A stretch of 33,298 nucleotides of DNA from an uncultured Spartobacteria bacterium (GTDB lineage Bacteria > Verrucomicrobiota > Verrucomicrobiia > Chthoniobacterales > Chthoniobacteraceae): positions 1 through 33,298 of the forward strand of contig CAIYUV010000059.1 of assembly GCA_903929475.1 (NCBI GenBank), read 5' to 3'. The notes under the pieces are model-generated. The model had not been told where the DNA came from, did no database searches, and worked only from the letters and a program-made list of their open reading frames with translations. Positions 13,088 through 29,365 of the stretch are shown here, piece after piece (within the stretch, counting starts at the first letter, position 1; each line of letters opens with the position of its first letter). The position numbers and the translations under genes are program-made.

Positions 13088-15568
13088 TCAGTTGAATTTT
13101 AGAGGCTCGGGTGTATCCAGTTTGGTTTCAGCGTTTGGCGATGGAGGGACAAGGATGGGTTTGGGTGCGGGAGCGTTGGGGTTCACGGGTTGCGGAGGTT
13201 CGGGAAGTGGCACGGTGTCGGTGCTGATGAGCGGGGCCTGGGCGTTGCCGACTCCGGCGATTTGTTTCATTTTCTCGACAGCGAGTTCGGAACCGTAAGG
13301 GTCAGTTCCGAGGACAGCTTTTTCTTTCAAGACGATTGCGACAACGGTCTGCGGTTCGCGGCGGATGGCGCGTTTGGCGTTGGGGTCTCCACCGGCGACG
13401 ACATTCTCAGCGATGACTCCGCTGTGGACGGGGCACGGGTCTTTGGGGGCTTGTTCCTCGGTGGCGATTTCCTGGTAGGTGGTGCGGACTCCGTTTTCGA
13501 GGCACTTGTCGGTCGCGAGGCCGCCGCTGTTGCGACAGATTTCGACGCGGATGATTCCCTTCGGCATGGTGAATTCATGCGGCTTGTAGTCGGCGAAGCT
13601 CGCTTTCATCAGCTCGGCCCACATGGGGAGTGTGATATCTTTGCTGAATGCGCCGCGGTAGATGCTGCGCTTGGGTCTGCCGCGCTGCTGATCAAAGCCC
13701 ATCCACACGCTGCACGTGATTTCGCTGCTGTAGCCGACGAACCAGAGGTCGGTAAAATTGTAGGCGGTGCCGGTTTTTCCACCGAGCGGGATTTTGCGAA
13801 GGCCAAGCTCGGTGGTGGCGCGCTCGGCGGTGCCGTCGGGTTCGAGGACTTGGGCGAGGCAGTCGTGGACTTCGTAGGCGGTGGTGGGCTTGATGACGGC
13901 GACGATGTCGGGCTTTTCCTCGAAGATGATGTGGCCGAGTTTGTCTTCGATGCGGGAGATGATGAAGGGTTTCGCGGGGCGCGAGCCGCCATTCGGGAAC
14001 ATCGTGTAGGCGAGCGTGAGTTCCATCGGGGAGACTTCGCTGCCACCCAGGTAGGTTTTTGGATAAGCGGCGAGTTGAGAGGTGATGCCGGCGTCTTCGA
14101 CGAGGCTGAGCACGTCCTCGATGCCGGTCATCATGCCGAGGCGTGCGGTGGCGGCGTTCTTGGATTTCACGAGGGCGGTGCGCGCGGAGATGGTGCCCTC
14201 GAAGTGGTTGTCCGCTCGCTCGGGGCCCCATTCGCCGAGGATGCCAGTCATGCCGCCGATCATCACTTTCGTGTTGTCCATCACCGCGTCCTGCACGGCG
14301 GTGCCGGGGAAGAATCCCTTTTCAAAAGCCGCTGCGTAGACGAGCGGCTTGAACGCGGTGCCCGGCAGCACCTGCACTTGCGTGGCGCGGTTCAGTTCGC
14401 TGTGTGCGAAGTCGCGTCCGCCGACGAGCGCGAGGATCGCGCCGCTGTGATTGTCGAGCATCACAGCGGTGCCTTGGAGATACTCCGGTTGCATCCGTTT
14501 TCCATCGGGGCCGGTCGGCTGCTTGTTCGCGGCTTTGTAAATCGCGTCGTATTTTGCGTAGGTCTGGTGGTCGTAGCCTTCGTGGCGCTCGACGGTCGCG
14601 AGTTGCGAGCGGATGGTCTCCTCGGCTTTCTTCTGCAGCGCCGCATCCACGGTCGTATAAATGCGCAGCCCCTCGCCGAGCGCGGTGTCCTTGCCGAATT
14701 TCCGCAGCACCTGCTGGTAGACCATGTCGGCAGCATAGTTTTCCTGGTGAAGTGGACGTTTGTTTTTCAACACCGGCTCCTCTTTGAAAGCTGCGTCGTA
14801 TTCCTCACGGGTGATTCTTTGCTGCATGAGCATGTTGTTGAGCACCACGTTCCGCTCGGTGATGCACGCCTGATAGCTGCCCCACGGCGAAAGCTTGTCC
14901 GGGCTGCGCAAGAGCCCCGCGAGGATCGCCGACTCGCAAATCGTCATGTCCTTCGCGCGCTTGCCGAAGTAGCCCTTCGCCGCCGCCTCCGCGCCGTAGA
15001 AACCGTTCCCGAAATAAACGCGGTTCATATACAGTTCGAGAATCTTGGTTTTGCTGAACTGCTTCTCAATCTCCAGCGCGACGAACATCTCGCGCAATTT
15101 GCGATCCCGCGTCTTGTCGTTCGGCGGAAGCTGCTCCGGGAAAGTATTGCGCGCGAGTTGCTGCGTGAGCGTGCTTGCTCCCTGCTTCGTGTAGCCCGCG
15201 CGCCAGTTTTCATACACGGCGCGCACCACACCTTTGTAGTCCACACCCTTGTGTTCGTAAAAACGCGCGTCCTCACGCGCGATGACGGCGTCGATCAGAT
15301 TTTTTGGCAGATCATCAAAGCGCACCTGATCGCGATTCTGCGTGAACATGCGCCCGATGATTGTCCCCTTTCGATCAAAGATAAGGCTCGCCGACTCCAT
15401 CGCCTCCATCCGCGAGTAATCAAACAGCTTCGCCTTCGCCTCATACTCCGCCTTCACCTTGAAATAAACGACCGCCCCCGCGATGCCGACCAACAGCAAC
15501 GTGAAGAACGGAATGGTGAACCACCAACGGCGATACCAGCGTTTTTTAGGTTTGGGCAAATCCCACAT
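13088..15568 (-). CDS. Class A penicillin-binding protein (PBP1A-like), with Thr at the nucleophile site
   Basis: An 826-residue inner-membrane protein that polymerises and would cross-link peptidoglycan. A basic N-terminus (KPKKRWYRRWW) precedes one membrane segment (about 17-36). The GT51 glycosyltransferase domain shows EDARFYEHKGVD (99-110, catalytic Glu99) and GASTLTQQLARN (130-141). The transpeptidase domain has SKN at 469-471 and KTGT at 598-601, but the S-x-x-K position reads Thr404-Ala-Phe-Lys407 (codon ACC), not Ser. The C-terminal tail is Pro-rich. The start at 15568 (MWDLPKPKK) is chosen because the upstream open extension of 35 residues has no hydrophobic or conserved feature. 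A degenerate copy of the 5' end lies at 16505-16690. Confidence 0.95.
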   Translation of the reverse strand: MWDLPKPKKRWYRRWWFTIPFFTLLLVGIAGAVVYFKVKAEYEAKAKLFDYSRMEAMESASLIFDRKGTIIGRMFTQNRDQVRFDDLPKNLIDAVIAREDARFYEHKGVDYKGVVRAVYENWRAGYTKQGASTLTQQLARNTFPEQLPPNDKTRDRKLREMFVALEIEKQFSKTKILELYMNRVYFGNGFYGAEAAAKGYFGKRAKDMTICESAILAGLLRSPDKLSPWGSYQACITERNVVLNNMLMQQRITREEYDAAFKEEPVLKNKRPLHQENYAADMVYQQVLRKFGKDTALGEGLRIYTTVDAALQKKAEETIRSQLATVERHEGYDHQTYAKYDAIYKAANKQPTGPDGKRMQPEYLQGTAVMLDNHSGAILALVGGRDFAHSELNRATQVQVLPGTAFKPLVYAAAFEKGFFPGTAVQDAVMDNTKVMIGGMTGILGEWGPERADNHFEGTISARTALVKSKNAATARLGMMTGIEDVLSLVEDAGITSQLAAYPKTYLGGSEVSPMELTLAYTMFPNGGSRPAKPFIISRIEDKLGHIIFEEKPDIVAVIKPTTAYEVHDCLAQVLEPDGTAERATTELGLRKIPLGGKTGTAYNFTDLWFVGYSSEITCSVWMGFDQQRGRPKRSIYRGAFSKDITLPMWAELMKASFADYKPHEFTMPKGIIRVEICRNSGGLATDKCLENGVRTTYQEIATEEQAPKDPCPVHSGVIAENVVAGGDPNAKRAIRREPQTVVAIVLKEKAVLGTDPYGSELAVEKMKQIAGVGNAQAPLISTDTVPLPEPPQPVNPNAPAPKPILVPPSPNAETKLDTPEPLKFN

Positions 15569-15865
15569 GAAGCGCCGTAGAATGTCCAAACCCCACGCAG
15601 AAGCAAGCCCGGTCAAGCCGCGTAGAAACGCAAAGCTTTTGGCTCGCACGGGCGGGCAGGAAATGAACGTCACAATGACTGTCGCTCACGACAAAGCCTC
15701 GCGGCACTTGCCTGCTTCCGTGAACGCCGTGCGAGACCCTTCCAGTGAATCCTGATTATCCTGTTTCGAAAGAGCGGCTGGATATTTGAGATTGGATGGA
15801 AAACGGGAATCCGTATCGCCGCATCCATGGCGAGCAGTGCGGCGTGTGAGTGAAGCCGTGAATCA

Positions 15866-16327
15866 AGCAGGATGAAACCCGTGAGCAAAGGGATTGATAC
15901 CGTGAGGAAAGGTATCCATCCCGGCAGAAAAGGGATGAAGCCCTGCGCAAAAGGTATCAATCCCCTGCGGAAAGGTATCCATCCCATTTGAAAAGGTATC
16001 CATCCCGCGCGGAAAGGTATCCATACCGCCGCAAAAGGTATGGCTACCATTTGGAAAGGGATGCATCCCCCGCGAAAAGGGATGAATCCCCGAGGAAAAG
16101 GGATGCATCCCGGAAGCGGTGGGATAAATCCCAAATGAAAAGGGATGAATCCCGGAGGAAAAGGGATGCATCCCGCCGCAAAAGGTATCCATCCCGCGAG
16201 AAAAGGTATCCATACCGCCGCAAATGGTATCGCTACCTTTTGAAATGGGATGAATCCCTTTTCAAATGGGATAGCCCCCTCCGGCAAAGGGAACGCCCCT
16301 CCAACAGAGAAGAACGCCCCTTTTCCA
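15866..16327. repeat. 21-bp tandem array 2, about 22 hairpin-like units
   Basis: Units of exactly 21 bp run from 15866 (first and last units degenerate; clear units start at 15887). The consensus is AAAGG(G/T)AT-NN-AT(C/A)CC followed by six variable bases. The conserved part is a dyad: some units are perfect palindromes (GGGATGCATCCC at units starting 16055, 16097, 16160), others have GGTAT-CC-ATACC (16013, 16202), so both arms change together in several units. Units at 15992-16054 recur at 16181-16243 with 57 of 63 matches, a nine-unit higher-order step. Open frames on both strands give false heptapeptide proteins. From 15622 to 15865 nothing recognisable was seen. Confidence 0.92.
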
Positions 16328-16504
16328 GAAAACAGCATTGCCCGCTGCCGCCGCAGCGTCCCTTCGGGCTGCCTGCGGCAGGCTGTCTCGCTCCGCTCGG
16401 CTCCCAAACCCGCGTCCGCCCCCAATCCGCAATCCCAAATCTTCCGCCCGCCCTCCCCGCTCCCTTCGTGTCCTTCGCGACTTTGTGGTTCAACGCCGCG
16501 TCCT
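16328..16504. other. Non-coding stretch between array 2 and the PBP fragment
   Basis: No gene is supported. It contains a perfect short dyad, GCCTGC-G-GCAGGC, at 16371-16383. It also holds two low-complexity phrases: AATCCGCAATCCCAAATC near 16424, and a stretch near 16465-16498 reading like 'cttcgtgtccttcgcgac' followed by 'tttgtggttcaacgcc'. I recall phrases of both types recurring in intergenic DNA of planctomycetes and verrucomicrobia; that is memory, not a search. The open frames crossing it are extensions of the array frames. Confidence 0.45.
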
Positions 16505-16690
16505 CGCCTTCGCCGCATACTCCGCCTTCACCTTGAAATAATCGCCCGCCACCGCACTACCGACCAACAGCAGTGTGAAGAGCGGAATGGTGAACCACCA
16601 ACGGCGATACCAGCATTTGTTTGGGCAAATCCCACATGAGGCACCGTAGGATGTCCAAACCCCACACAGACGCAATCCCGCTCAAAGCGA
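16505..16690 (-). pseudogene. Degenerate duplicate of the PBP1A gene 5' end
   Basis: This segment aligns in the same orientation with 15431-15621, the upstream region and first codons of the PBP gene. Over the first 105 bases about ten positions differ. After the shared start codon context (ATGTGGGATTTGCCCAAA on the minus strand) the copy lacks 5 bases relative to the intact gene, which shifts the frame. The peptide phrase CWYRRWWFTIPLFTLLLVG is therefore read in a frame that no longer begins at the original ATG, and it stops soon after AEYAAKARTRR. It stops matching exactly where the intact protein continues KLFDYSRM. It is a dead fragment, not a gene. Confidence 0.85.
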
Positions 16691-16880
16691 ACGTATCAAA
16701 CTCACAGCATCGAAGCTAAAGTGCTCGCAGAATTGGAAATCGGTGCTGGACAGCGGGTGCTCCGCATCTAACGTCGGCGCGCACCGAATCCTGACGGTGT
16801 GCTTTGATTTTGAGAAGGCGACGTATTTCGCCCATACACTTCAAAGGCAGCCACTTCAACTCAACGCAACCAACGCTACC

Positions 16881-19800
16881 ATGAAAGCCATCTCACTCAC
16901 CCACACCACCGGCACGCTCGTAAAATACACCCGCTGGCTCACGCGACTTTTCACGTTGATGGTGCTCGTTATCTGCGGCTTCTCGCTCACAGCTCCTTCG
17001 GCAAAAGCGGCATCACTGACCGGCAAGACCGTAAACCTCAATGTCCGGTATCAGGTGACAACGCAGGAAGGTGTTTCCATTGATCAATCCCTCTACACAG
17101 GGAATTTCGTGGTAAACGGCACGCAGGAGGTGAGCACACCGTTCACTTTCACCTATGTCAGCGGCGGGTTTAACCAGACGTTCAGCGGGACGCTCACCGC
17201 CACTGTCAGCGGCAACGCGATGACGGTTGGATTTTCAGGGCAGGAACAGCCGGGGGGGGCTTGTATTCATCCTGTCCAACGTCAATCAGGGCACATCCGT
17301 CGCTTCGACCGCGCAGACCGGCTATTCGGACAACAACAACTTCGGCAACCAGGCAACAGCACCGTCTTTCGACAACTCTGGCAACGGCTCCATCACATCG
17401 GGTTTCTTTATGGCCGGCTTTCAGCCGGGTGAGGTTCTTTCCCAGTCCATTTCTTTTTCTCTGATCACCGCGCCCACCGTCACCACCAACGCCGCGACGA
17501 ATGTCACCACCTCCGGCGCGACACTGAACGGCATCATCAACGGCAACGGCGAAACCGGCGTGGCCACGAAGTTCAGCTATGGCCTGACGACCAACTACGG
17601 GAGCACTGCGGCAGCCTCGCCGTCCTCGGTCTCCGGCAGCACGGACACGGCGATCAACGCCACGATCAGCGGATTGATTCCCGGCGTCACTTACCACTAC
17701 CGTGCGGAGGGAGTGATTGGGGGCACAACGACCGGGGGAGCCGATCAGACGTTCACCATCCCTGCGGCATCCACCGTCAGCGTGCTGGGCACTCCGGCAT
17801 GGACGAATTCCGGTGCTACGCTTTCCAACTTCACCGTCCCGGCAGGGAATAACCGTGTGCTCGTCGTGGCGGCCTCTGCGGAGAATGTCAGCGGGGCGAC
17901 GAGCGCGCTGGACATCACGAGCGTGACCTTCAACGGCAGTGCCATGACGCTCGGTGCAAAAAAGAATGATTTCGTGCTCAACAGCAGCATCGGCTACACG
18001 GTAGATGGCCTTTATTATGTGGCGCTCGGCACCAGCGCCTCGCCGACCACGGCGAACATCGTAGTGACACCGGGGAGCAGCGCGACGGTAAGTGCCATCG
18101 GGGCGGTGGCGTTCCAGAATGTGGACCAGACGACTCCGCTCAATGGCTTTCAGACCGCAAACAGTTTGACCTCCGCGTCCACCCTGACTGCCACCAGCAC
18201 GGCAGGCGACATGGTGATTGACTTGATGGACAACTATAACGCCATACCCGTCGCTGGCACTGGCCAAACCGTTGCTGTGGCAGGCCCCGACACCCTTGGT
18301 GGAGCCTTGAATTATGCGGTCTCGCTCAAACTCGGTGCCGCCAGCGTGCCGATGGCATGGACCTCAACCGGCGGCGGCGAAACCCAGCAAGTGCTGGCCA
18401 ATATCAAGCAGGCGAGCGCGGCGATCGCCCCGGCGGTGACGTCGAATCCCTCGAACCAGACGGTGACTGCGGGTGGCACCGCGACATTCACTGCAGCGGC
18501 GAGCGGCACGCCGACGCCGACGGTGCAGTGGCAGGTGAGCACCGATGGTGGGGCGAACTTCAGCGATGTGAGTGGTGCGACGAGCACGACGCTGAGTTTC
18601 ACGGCGGCGGGCAGCGACGGGGGTAAGAAATTCAGGGCGGTGTTCACCAACACGTCCGGCAGTGCGACGACTACGGCAGCGACGCTGACGGTGAATCCGC
18701 TGCCGATCGGCGGGGCGACTCATGTGGCAGTGGGCAACACTGCGACTGCCACCGATGCGACTGCTGGGGGCACTTGGACGAGTTCGAATCCCTCCATCGG
18801 CACCGTGGGAGCTGCCAGCGGCATTGTCAGCGGGATTTCAGCAGGCACTTTCACGCTGACCTACACGCTGCCCAGCGGCGGATTTGCGAGCGAGACATTC
18901 ACCGTGGATCCGCTGCCGACGGCGTTCACCGTCACGGGCGGTGGAAGCTACACAATGGGCGGAGCCGGGGTTGCCGTGGGACTCAACGGCTCGCAGGCCG
19001 GGGTGAACTACCAGTTGTTCAACGGTGCCGCGCCGAGCGGTTCTGCCGTGGCCGGCACGGGCGCTGCGATTTCCTTTGGCAACCAGACTGCGGCGGGGAC
19101 TTACACCGTGGTGGCCACGAATGCGACGACCAACGCCACGAGGTCCATGGTGGGTAGCGCGACGGTGACGATCATCCCGGTGGCGGATCTCGCAATTAGC
19201 GTGACCGACGGGGTGACGACGGCGACGCCCGGCGGTTCGGTGACCTACACGATCACGGCGAGCAATGCCGGACCGAGCAATGTGACCGGCGCGACGGTGG
19301 CGGACACTTTCCCTGCATCGCTCACGGCGACATGGACGGCGGTGGGCGCGGGCGGCGGCACAGCTACGGCGTCGGGCTCGGGGAATATCAATGACACGGT
19401 GAATCTGCCCGCAGGTGGCTCGGTGACTTACACGGTTACTGCCGCGATTTCCGCGGGTGCGACGGGAACGCTGAGCAACACGGCGACCGTGAGCGCACCC
19501 GGAGGTGTGACTGATCCGACACCCGGCAACAACAGCGCGACGGACAGCGACACGCTCGCACCGAGGGCCGATCTCGCGATCACCAAAACCGATGGTGTGA
19601 CAGTGGTGAACGCGGGCGGGACGGTGACTTATACGATCACCGCATCAAACGCAGGCCCGAGCAATGCGCCGGGCACTACGGTGGCAGATACGCTGCCAGC
19701 TTCGCTCTCGAACGCGACGTGGACGGCTGTGGGCGCTGGCGGCGGCACGGCGACGGCATCCGGCTCGGGGAATATCAACGACACGGTGAATCTCCCGGCG

Positions 19801-22335
19801 GGTGGCTCGGTGACCTACACCGTCACGGCCAATATTTCCGGCTCCGCATCAGGCACGCTGAGCAACACCGCCACAGTCAGCGCGCCAAGCGGCGTGACGG
19901 ATCCAACACCCGGCAACAACAGCGCGACCGACAGCGATTCGGTGAACACAGCACCCATCGTGGCGAACCCAACGAGTGCGAACATCGCCGCGACCAAAGT
20001 GACGTTAGGCGGTGAAGTGACGAGTGACGGCGGACTGCCAGTCACCGTGCGAGGCGTGGTGTATTCGCTGACGGCGAGCAATGCAGATCCCGTTATCGGC
20101 GGCAACGGTGTCACGAATCTGACAAGCAGCGGAACCACCGGCGTCTTCACCGTGAATGTGACCGGGCTGGTTCCCAACAGCGGTTATTCCTTCAAGGCGT
20201 ATGCGACCAACAGCATTGGCACGACCTACACCGGCCCGGCGTCCACATTCACCACGCTGACCGCGCCCGAAATCGCCATTGAGCAACCAGCGGGGACGGA
20301 TTTGACCGCAGGCACAGCGAGCATCGGCTTCGGCACGGTGAATCTCGGCAGCAATGTGCCGAAGACATTCACCATCAAGAACAGCGGCAGTGCGGTGCTC
20401 AACATCACCAGCGTGAGCACGACTGGCGGTCAGGCGGGTGACTTTATCGTGAATACCGGAGGGATGCTCAACAACGTCCCAATCACCAATGGTCAGACGA
20501 CTTTCACCGTCACCTTCACACCGGGCACAGCCGCTGCGAAGCAGACGACCTTGCGCGTAGTCACCGATGACGAAGACGAAGGCACCTTTGACATCGCGCT
20601 CACCGGCACGGGCAATGCCCTGCCGACGCTCACGCTACCGACCTCACCCGTGCTTGCGGAGACCACGGTTTTGAGCGGCACAACGGTGAACTTTACCGTC
20701 ACCGCGAACGACACCGAGGATGGCGCGCTGACACCGGTCGTGACTCCGGCAAGCGGCTCGAATTTCCCGCGTGGGGACACGACGGTGAATGTGAGCGCGA
20801 CCGACAGCAACGGCGCTGTTGTGAACGGCAGCTTCGTCGTGCATGTGCAACTTACCAAGCCGGTGAATACACCGACGCTCGCCAAAGGCGACGCGGCACC
20901 CGGCGCAGGCACAAACGGGCTGCCTCCGGATGCGAAACTCTCGACGTTTGGGATGCCTGCAATTGATGACGTGGGGAACGTCGCATTCACCGCAGCATGG
21001 ACGAGCGCCACCGGCGGCAAGGGCAGCGGGCTTTTCACTAACACAGCCTGCATCTCCCTCGTCGGCGCGCCGGTGCCCGGAGTGAGCGGTGCAAAATACA
21101 AAGGCTTCAGCGATCCGGTCATTGATGGCGGGCGCATCGCCTCGATCATCACGATGATGGGAGTGCCTGCGATCAGCAGCAGCGCCGTGCTCACTGCGAC
21201 CACGAGTGACGACGTAGAAATCGTCGCCCGCGCAGGCGATGTCGCGACCACCGACGGCGCGAAGTTCAAGAGCTTCAAATCCGTGGAAGTGCGCGGCCTC
21301 ACCATAGCCTTCGCCGCCAAACTCATCACCGGCACCGGCACGCCCAAGGCCACAACCGCCAGCGACGAAGGCGTGTGGGTCAAAGACCTCACCAGTTCGC
21401 TCGTGCTCGCATTGCGCAAAGGACAATCCGTCGGCCCGCGTAAAATCAAAACGCTGACCTCGTTCGATTCCAGCACTGGCTCGCGCGGTCAGGGGCGTGG
21501 CTGGCTCGAACTCACCGGCAGTGCCGCCACCGTGCAGGCGCGCGTGCTTTACACCGACAGCACACAAGCCGCGCTCAGCGTGCGCGTCTCGGGCGGCAAT
21601 GCGACCGTGAACACCCTCCTGCACAGCGACGACGTTCTGCCCGACGGCTTCCAATTGTCCGGCCCCTTCGGCCTCCCAGCAGAGAATGCCAGCGGCCAAA
21701 GCGCACTTCTCACCTCCACCGTATCCGACCGCGGAGCACGCCCCGGCATCGAAACGAATCTCGACGGGAAAGGATACATCCGCATCGTTGCGCGCGACGA
21801 AGGCACGCCCGGCAGCAGTAACTACTTCTCCACACTGCAAGACCCCGTGCTCGCCGAGGACGGTGGCGTCGCCTTCCCCGCAAAAATCCGCGGCACCGGC
21901 ATCAATGGCATAGCGGCCAACACACTCTGGTGGCAGCCCGTGGGCGGTTCGCTCACACTGCTCGCCCGTGGCGGAGCCATCAACGGCGGCGCACAAAACG
22001 ACCTTCCCGTCGGCGCACAATGGAGCGCCTTCAACTCCCTCGCCATCGCAGCGGATCGCGGTCCGCTCTTCTCCGCCTCGCTCGTCGTCGGCAAAGGCGG
22101 CGTGACCACCGCCAACTCAAAAGGCGTCTGGGCAGTGGACTACCAAGGCAAACTTCAGCACCTCTTCCGCACCGGCGAAACCGTCAACGGCAAAACGCTC
22201 AAGAGCTTCACCCTGCTTAACGCCACCGTCGGCAACTCCGGCGTCACACGCAGCTTCAACGACAACGCCCAGGTCGCCTGGCTCGCCACTTTCACCGACG
22301 CCTCACAGGCCATCATCACCACTAACGTGCCGTAA
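16881..22335 (+). CDS. Giant secreted multi-domain surface protein, frameshifted at an 8-G run
   Basis: Two overlapping frames make one gene. The 5' frame starts at ATG 16881 with a long signal peptide (hydrophobic LFTLMVLVICGFSLTA, cleavage near AKA-A) and runs to GFSGQEQPGG. Removing one G from the run at 17252-17259 joins it to the frame ending at 22335, for about 1,817 residues. Domains by position: fibronectin-III-like (about 17470-17750), an Ig-like domain (SNPSNQTVTAGGTATF, 18430-18700), two DUF11 repeats (19183-19560, 19567-19940), another FN3-like domain (19950-20262), a HYDIN/ASH-like domain (20265-20620), an HYR-like domain (20620-20860), and a C-terminal repeat region typical of planctomycete surface proteins (20870-22335). 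No PEP-CTERM or LPXTG anchor is seen. Probable role: adhesion or matrix. Confidence 0.85.
17252..17259 (+). repeat. Homopolymer run of 8 G at the frameshift point
   Basis: The run CGGGGGGGGC separates the signal-peptide frame from the long downstream frame. With seven G the reading is continuous (PGGLVFILSNV); with eight it enters a frame ending at 17432. This is a classic site for slipped-strand change and also for sequencing error, and the sequence alone cannot decide between them. Confidence 0.85.
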
Positions 22336-28156: not shown

Positions 28157-29365
28157 CTACAGCAGATGCCCCATCTTGGTCCGCTTGGTTTCAAGATACT
28201 TTGCGTTGTGTTTGTTCGGCGTTGATTTGATGGGGACAACCTCAACGATCTTCAGGCCGTAGCCTTCGAGGCCGATGACTTTCTTCGGATTATTTGTGAG
28301 GAAGCGCATTTTTCGCACGCCGAGATCGTGGAGGATTTGTGCGCCGACGCCGTAGTCGCGCAGTTCGGCTGGGAAGCCGAGTTTGATGTTCGCCTCCACG
28401 GTATCGAGCCCCTCTTGCTGGAGTTTGTAGGCGTGGATTTTTGCTGCGAGGCCGATGCCGCGTCCCTCGTGCTGCCTCATGTATAAAAGGACGCCGTGTC
28501 CCGCGCGGTCGATCTGCCGCAGCGCGGAGTGGAGTTGGTTGCCGCAATCGCAGCGCATCGAGCCGAAGATGTCACCCGTCAGGCACTCGCTGTGAACGCG
28601 CACGAGCGTGGCTTTTGCGGACGTGAGTTTTCCACGCACGAGAGCGATGTGATGCGCGCCATCCACGAGTGAGCGGTAGAGATGCAGATCAAATTCTCCG
28701 TATTGCGTGGGCATCTTCACCACTTGCTCGCAGACGACGAGCTTCTCGCTCTTGCGCCGGTGCGCGATGAGCGCGGCGATGCTCACCATGCGGAGCTTGT
28801 GTTTCTTTTTGAAAGCGAGGAGCTGCGGCAGTCGCGCCATCGTGCCGTCGGCGTTCATGATTTCGCAGATGACCGCCGCCGGTTGCATCCCCGCAAGCCG
28901 CGCCAGATCCACGCCGGCCTCGGTGTGTCCGGCGCGTCGCAGCACGCCTCCGTCCTTGGCGCGAAGCGGAAAGACGTGGCCGGGCTGCACGAGGTCGCGC
29001 GGTTGCGATTTTACATCGGCGAGCACGGCGATGGTGCGCGCACGGTCGGCGGCGCTGATGCCCGTGCTGATGCCGCGCGCGGCATCCACCGCGACGGTGA
29101 AATCGGTTTTGTGCGATTCGCGGTTTTCGCGCGCCATGCGTTCGAGGCCGAGTGCAGTGGCCCGTTCCCCTGCGAGCGGCACGCAAATGAGGCCGCGCGC
29201 GTGCGTGGCCATGAAATTCACCGCGGCGGGCGTGATTTTTTCCGCTGCCATGATGAGATCGCCTTCGTTCTCGCGACCTTCGTCGTCGGTCACGATGACC
29301 ATTTTCCCCGCGCGCAAATCGCGGAGGACATCTTCGATGGAATCAAACTGAACAGCTTTCGGCAT
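28157..29365 (-). CDS. ribBA: Bifunctional DHBP synthase / GTP cyclohydrolase II
   Basis: A 402-residue cytoplasmic enzyme for the two entry reactions of riboflavin synthesis. Residues 1-200 are 3,4-dihydroxy-2-butanone 4-phosphate synthase, with the acidic DDEGRENEGD at 27-36 and a GHVFPLRAKDGGVLRRAGHTEA stretch. The rest is GTP cyclohydrolase II: HSECLTGDIFGSMRCDCGNQ holds all three zinc cysteines, RQHEGRGIGL binds substrate, and the end reads LEGYGLKIVEVVPI. Length is normal. ATG 29365 (MPKAVQFDSIED) is chosen; 25 upstream in-frame residues are unrelated. No FMN riboswitch consensus was seen in the 75 bp leader, but a strong short hairpin lies at 29377-29393. The OmpA-like gene is upstream in the same direction. 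Confidence 0.96.
   Translation of the reverse strand: MPKAVQFDSIEDVLRDLRAGKMVIVTDDEGRENEGDLIMAAEKITPAAVNFMATHARGLICVPLAGERATALGLERMARENRESHKTDFTVAVDAARGISTGISAADRARTIAVLADVKSQPRDLVQPGHVFPLRAKDGGVLRRAGHTEAGVDLARLAGMQPAAVICEIMNADGTMARLPQLLAFKKKHKLRMVSIAALIAHRRKSEKLVVCEQVVKMPTQYGEFDLHLYRSLVDGAHHIALVRGKLTSAKATLVRVHSECLTGDIFGSMRCDCGNQLHSALRQIDRAGHGVLLYMRQHEGRGIGLAAKIHAYKLQQEGLDTVEANIKLGFPAELRDYGVGAQILHDLGVRKMRFLTNNPKKVIGLEGYGLKIVEVVPIKSTPNKHNAKYLETKRTKMGHLL

Follow-up and report, generated by a model that had tools for sequence, protein, structure and literature searches.

The array examined here raises the question of why tandem 21-bp units, each carrying a short dyad whose two arms seem to change together, should have accumulated between two bacterial genes. 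The window analyzed, 33,298 nucleotides in length, is the whole of contig C59 of the 4.5-Mb draft genome (G000) of an uncultured Spartobacteria bacterium (Verrucomicrobiota, Chthoniobacterales, Chthoniobacteraceae). An earlier note, made from the letters alone, had described an array of dyad units at 15866-16327, and a row alignment of the window placed this entire interval in phase on 21-bp rows. Nineteen clean tandem units of the form AAA-GG[GT]AT-NN-AT[AC]CC-N6 were found at 15887-16285 on the forward strand with decayed units on both sides, and an independent TRF run reported period 21 and 15.4 copies at 15908-16231. The 5′ edge unit AGCAGGATGAAACCCGTGAGC (15866-15886, forward) is in phase with the array and has a decayed dyad; at the opposite edge, degenerate units, AAAGGGAACGCCCCT (16286-16300, forward), run into a conserved 3′ end module, CCAACAGAGAAGAACGCCCCTTTTCCAG (16301-16328, forward), which is common to other 21-bp arrays of the same genome and of a sister species. 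The unit consists of a 12-bp dyad, GG[GT]AT-NN-AT[AC]CC, as had been proposed; the six free bases proposed beside it gave way to a 9-bp linker, usually NNNNNN plus AAA, which fits better. Exact GGGAT..ATCCC arms occur in 7 of the 19 units, exact GGTAT..ATACC arms in 2, GGTAT..CTACC in 2 more and mixed arms in 6, in agreement with the three kinds of unit listed earlier. The unit count also bore out the three occurrences of the perfect core palindrome GGGATGCATCCC, at 16058-16069, 16100-16111 and 16163-16174 (no strand assigned), and the dyad was above chance by column permutation (p=0.0005).

The array is intergenic, with pbp1A on one side and a surface-protein gene on the other. Two direct duplicates of the pbp1A 5′ end, each of about 200 bp and about 1.07 kb apart, bracket it: copy A (15430-15636, reverse strand) holds the 5′ end with upstream DNA, and copy B (16504-16708, reverse strand) is a degenerate duplicate. 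Immediately beyond the end module, alignment revealed a downstream module shared with other loci (16329-16500, forward), made of CAATCCG-type heptamers and CTTCGTGnCCTTCG..TTYGTGGTT repeats, and 16296-16500 matched contig C195 of the same genome at 72.7% identity. At the orthologous pbp1A site of G007, the closest relative with upstream sequence, neither an array nor the ~200-bp duplication was observed, the 5′ end being present in one copy only; this same-genus sister species is the freshwater MAG Chthoniobacteraceae bacterium RH-23may17-247, "freshwater" being read from the isolate name. Another genome, G005, matches the window only as far as the gene start, on a short contig. Elsewhere in the window, an 8-G run at 17252-17259 separates a signal-peptide ORF (16743-17432) from a 1702-aa repeat-rich surface-protein ORF (17227-22335) and is either a phase-variable tract or an assembly error. 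A marginal Rfam match to V_AS9 (51.7 bits, cut-off 50) at 29157-29256, within a ribBA-like coding region and on its opposite strand, probably reflects coding conservation.

The claim that both arms change together was not borne out by the window alone, where the association of the G/T with the C/A arm position was not significant (Fisher p=0.14), and more data were therefore needed. When all five arm pairs of the 14 distinct cores in the window were considered, a within-array shuffle gave p=0.007, a value from which shared ancestry is not removed. The larger unit collection that the earlier note had proposed as a check was clear: paired arm changes were in excess, distinct cores being matched at the G/T pair in 168 cases and mixed in 20, and matched cores formed the majority in 19 of 20 genomes (p=4e-5). 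This count is free of ascertainment because the search pattern allowed mixed arms. After exclusion of the units ascertained by the pattern, pairs 3 and 4 covaried clearly and pairs 1 and 2 weakly, and the innermost pair showed no covariation, as would be expected from a 4-bp stem with a 4-nt loop. For pair 3 the within-array shuffle gave z=7.1 within units, against 4.3 and 5.0 in the neighboring-unit controls; these controls are not zero, and part of the covariation therefore comes from blocks of related units. With the dyad as the conserved part of the unit and paired changes in excess, the suggestion that the dyad itself matters was upheld.

Single strands of the array were predicted to fold far more stably than their shuffles (z of -8.1 for the plus-strand RNA, -9.5 for the minus-strand RNA and -9.2 for the plus-strand DNA), and the predicted folds mainly paired neighboring cores across the 9-nt linker. 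Such strong predicted folding on both strands would suit a transcribed array of small RNA hairpins, the RNA stem of the earlier note. However, a single core would need a loop of 2-4 nt, and the mixed units of the window array carry T.C or G.A mismatches and not wobble pairs. Among the arm mismatches of the collection, in which array orientation is not resolved, G.T was not much commoner than A.C (39 vs 28), and no clear bias toward wobble pairs was seen. No Rfam family or covariance model reached its gathering score over the array, and the loci inspected showed no clear preference of orientation relative to genes. Taken together, these data make the RNA reading quite improbable.

In order to see the array in its genomic setting, a lag scan that used no sequence pattern was run over 457 kb of the own genome, sampled as stretches from contigs chosen by contig number. 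Eighteen period-21 segments were detected, whereas lags 19, 20 and 23 gave none, lag 22 gave one and the others at most 6 except for the harmonic at 42. About 16 of the arrays in this sample were independent and not heptameric, which extrapolates to ~155 arrays per genome, and all arrays that were inspected are intergenic. The exact double-dyad pattern occurs in the own genome only at the window array; a looser three-unit pattern was found at three more of its loci (C145, C246 and C258), at five loci in G007 and at one in another genus. The single special element suspected in the earlier note thus turned out to be one of many. The window itself holds another array (1430-1900) with 21-bp units CAAGGTTGTTTTAAGGCTCCG / CATTCCAAGGTTGTTTCAGAG and a 42-bp higher order, whose dyad is not significant. 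Many 21-bp arrays, this one included, are without a significant dyad, and palindromy is therefore not required for an array to exist. Among the 30 arrays found by lag only, 6 had a significant dyad vs 1.5 expected (p=0.003); 21-bp arrays are therefore general, and the dyad is frequent but not obligatory. The linkers of the Verrucomicrobia set held no excess of a second dyad. Heptamer tandem repeats (CACTGAG, CAGTGCT, ACCAGTC, TCCGCAA) are also frequent in the same intergenic regions, for example at L073 5449-5550 and 8505-8585, L103 1-153 and L077 5792-5843, and CAATCCG heptamers adjoin the array end modules. No 7-bp periodicity was detected in the 21-bp arrays, though 3 x 7 = 21.

Arrays of very different units were found to terminate in the common 3′ end module CCAACAGAGAAGARCGCCCCTTTTCC, which the own genome carries at 13 places and the sister species has as well. 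As a phylum-wide signature the module was rejected, since a search of 388 phylum genomes gave a single chance-like match outside the genus. In 10 of the 13 end-module arrays the best dyad lay at one register, its center -10.5 bp (mod 21) from CAGAGAAG, and the arms at this shared register were GGGA/TCCC in the window array and GGGG/CCCC, AGTC/GACT, TGGA/TCCA or AGGA/TCCT in others. The mean z of this register test was 2.40, and none of 20,000 random register draws was as high. The arrays on C41, C236 and C126 are near-copies of one another (85-91% over 390-440 bp), so that the 13 are not all independent and the independent cases are nearer ten. Dyads with unrelated arms at a shared register are the strongest evidence that it is complementarity and not sequence that persists.

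These arms bear directly on the proposal of one dimeric protein's site, which the earlier note had offered and which they make awkward. Operator-like sites (GGTATNNATACC arrays) for a sequence-specific dimeric DNA-binding protein with the half-site GGKA would account for the clean GG[GT]A..T[AC]CC dyad in the window, at three other loci of the own genome, in G007 and in more than 24 arrays elsewhere. However, arrays that share end module and register carry the unrelated half-sites GGGG, AGTC, TGGA and AGGA, the GGKA consensus in other genomes is produced in part by the pattern used in the search, and independent half-sites give no reason to expect the arm changes of one array to be paired. The arms change in pairs without conservation of their sequence, and a single sequence-specific dimer fails on this point; we consider the operator reading unlikely. 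Complementarity that is conserved while the sequence is free to change favors a property of DNA structure over the site of one protein.

Copying of array and end module between intergenic sites, as a dispersed mobile or REP-like element moved by a transposase such as RAYT, is suggested by the near-copies on C41, C236 and C126, by a longer homology between C236 and C195 and by the 13 places that share the end module. The ends of the homology between array copies vary, however, and Y1/RAYT counts are unlinked to arrays (4 in G000, 2 in G007 and 3-11 in other members of the genus); RAYT mobilization was rejected on the latter ground, and the mobile-element reading as a whole is very unlikely. A viral origin was also rejected: in the four IMG/VR contigs that match the pattern, the match covers just two units, three of these contigs belong to one sequence family, and none holds an array. 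The plasmids searched gave no meaningful match to the array.

Comparison of sister species showed how such arrays change with time. The place and the pitch were kept at orthologous loci, and copy number or the whole unit was changed. The arrays on C258 of G000 and C44 of G007 share both edges and differ in many units; those on C145 and C2, respectively, share edges and have different interiors; and C5 and C70 hold other units in the same gap (ACGGCGCGGGCCCTTGGTTGC vs ACGGCGGAGTCCCTTGACTGA). Between L160 and L173, units were lost and T..A was changed to G..C on both arms. Arrays are thus present in relatives, some of them orthologous, and the part of the earlier expectation that concerned relatives held to this extent and failed at the pbp1A site of G007. 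At another orthologous locus, genes for leucine-rich-repeat proteins have 21-bp arrays upstream of them in two species (L041 8140-8819 and L045 7092-7330; also L043). A protein-coding heptapeptide repeat might be read from the unit length, since 21 bp make seven codons, and from the open frames that span the array. Orthologous arrays, however, are open in other frames and strands (252 aa on the plus strand in L041 vs 270 aa on the minus strand in L045), the conserved positions are dyadic and not codon-like, and the array is intergenic. This turnover of frame and strand led us to reject the coding reading, which we regard as extremely improbable.

The occurrence of the dyad beyond the phylum was determined by a scan of 84,980 genomes in which two GGKATNNATMCC units had to follow one another at a pitch of 21 bp. 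Of the 49 stretches obtained, well over half were true arrays, and the hosts included Flavobacteriaceae, Prevotellaceae, Odoribacteraceae, Cytophagales, Chitinophagaceae, several groundwater Verrucomicrobia and an acidobacterium. The GGTAT dyad was found in only 1 of 246 other, random Bacteroidota genomes, and there at a spacing other than 21; the dyad class is therefore rare and sporadic in Bacteroidota. Some other genomes carry 21-bp arrays of other sequence in pattern-free stretches (11 segments in 200 kb of G531), such genomes having themselves been reached via the dyad pattern. In G531, a member of the Flavobacteriaceae, the arrays on contigs C139, C147, C172 and C185 combine a perfect 12-bp palindrome, GGTAGTACTACC, and the linker GGAAGTCTT; some G531 arrays sit at contig ends, which suggests that arrays break assemblies.

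Among known systems, the family to which the window array belongs is a bacterial minisatellite (VNTR) by both defining features tested. Its units of the ~10-100 bp class are in tandem and head to tail, as TRF and lag analysis established, and copy number varies between close relatives at orthologous places, a feature seen for the family (C258/C44, L160/L173) and not at the window locus. Like minisatellites, the arrays are intergenic and differ in unit content between related genomes; unlike them, the ~155 arrays keep to a unit of 21 bp though their sequences differ, in many of them the unit forms a palindrome at a constant register whose arms change in pairs, and an end module is shared. No CRISPR was recognized, the unit being a 12-bp core with a 9-bp linker, in place of a repeat of at least 21 bp and a unique spacer of like length, and the Rfam CRISPR match (E 0.25) falling below gathering. 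Plasmid iterons and centromere repeats are ~20-22-bp direct repeats in helical phase that form sequence-specific sites at a single locus. Here, by contrast, ~155 arrays of unrelated sequence lie by unrelated genes and not at one locus beside rep or par, the flanking proteins being read by eye.

REP/BIME elements comprise GTAG- and CGTC-tagged units of 20-40 bp, single or in inverted pairs and of conserved sequence, and the GTAG types are linked to RAYTs (PMC3733652). They resemble the present arrays as high-copy extragenic palindromes of many phyla with unsettled function (PMC3733652). The units here, in contrast, are direct and tandem with arms that vary from array to array, no conserved tagged palindrome was found, and the array-rich genomes hold few RAYT genes, though all 10 genomes of the genus have some. 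Direct repeats of the heptamer TAACTGA in Beggiatoaceae, Cyanobacteria and Bacteroidetes, up to ~170 sets per genome, are likewise sporadic intergenic tandem repeats of distant phyla, but they have a fixed 7-bp sequence, lie mostly just upstream of start codons and are not palindromic (PMC4679880). The available part of the account of Borg tandem repeats describes genome-wide, rapidly evolving and recently formed arrays, which differ in their A-rich units, in lying about half within genes and in belonging to archaeal extrachromosomal elements, and it reports no dyad (PMC9879509). 21-bp arrays that keep self-complementarity while the letters change completely exist also in unrelated bacteria; no description of 21-bp palindromic arrays was found in the open-access literature, to which the search was confined.

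We thus favor, with a probability of roughly 0.45, the view that the array belongs to a genome-wide, dispersed family of hypervariable minisatellites that do not code for protein, and that its palindromy would be kept by hairpin- or template-switch-driven turnover. Beyond the observed structure, turnover and covariation, we infer a replication mechanism in which the repeat would act as single-stranded DNA during replication or repair. A hairpin, formed by one unit's short palindrome or by two neighboring cores paired over the 9-nt linker, would lead to unit-length slippage, with expansion and contraction, and to arm-to-arm template switching (quasipalindrome correction). Palindromic units would be copied preferentially and arm changes would thereby become paired, and the pitch of two helical turns would be preserved because change proceeds by whole units. 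No sequence-specific reader would be necessary, and any part played in compacting DNA or absorbing supercoils would be secondary. The strands outfold their shuffles by pairing neighboring cores, and slippage with template switching is therefore favored. Quasipalindrome correction via template switching is described in E. coli (PMC7202029) and the homogenization of quasipalindrome arms in yeast, with arms of 7 bp and more documented for the switching (PMC8604942). Against this explanation, the arms of the array, at 4-5 bp, are below these lengths; inverted spacers, an expected side product of template switching, were not in excess (16 observed vs 16.6 expected); many 21-bp arrays lack a significant dyad, and part of the covariation reflects blocks of related units; and slippage alone leaves the 21-bp pitch in several phyla unexplained.

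The main rival to hairpin-driven turnover is an architectural protein that would read symmetry and pitch. A selected DNA-structure or nucleoid element would present a dyad every two turns on the same helix face, either to a symmetric architectural protein or as supercoil-absorbing cruciforms, in a role like that of REP/BIME clusters. The strict 21-bp pitch of two turns, a dyad register that stays fixed though the arms change, a geometry that recurs sporadically in Verrucomicrobia, Bacteroidetes and Acidobacteria and the intergenic siting without clear gene-orientation preference are all consistent with it. A detectable dyad, however, is present only in a minority of the lag-only arrays, arrays may be missing from an orthologous place (pbp1A in G007) or have their unit replaced wholesale, and no candidate protein was identified, so that we hold such an element to be possible and on balance doubtful. 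Rather doubtful, too, is the broader proposition that 21-bp two-turn arrays, sporadic across bacterial phyla, have their self-complementarity, and not their sequence, maintained by dedicated machinery, be it an enzyme that copies arrays or a protein that binds specifically to their structure.

If that proposition were true, the arrays would make up a widespread class of DNA arrays conserved in structure. Arrays with a fixed pitch and symmetry and without a fixed sequence are a natural record of compensatory DNA change outside known RNA genes, and they would permit a direct test of whether palindromy is spread by mutation, through template switching, or by selection, through structure-reading proteins. 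At ~155 per genome they matter for assembly and annotation, in which they create spurious ORFs, and they provide rapidly changing markers of the VNTR type for freshwater Verrucomicrobia that are uncultured.
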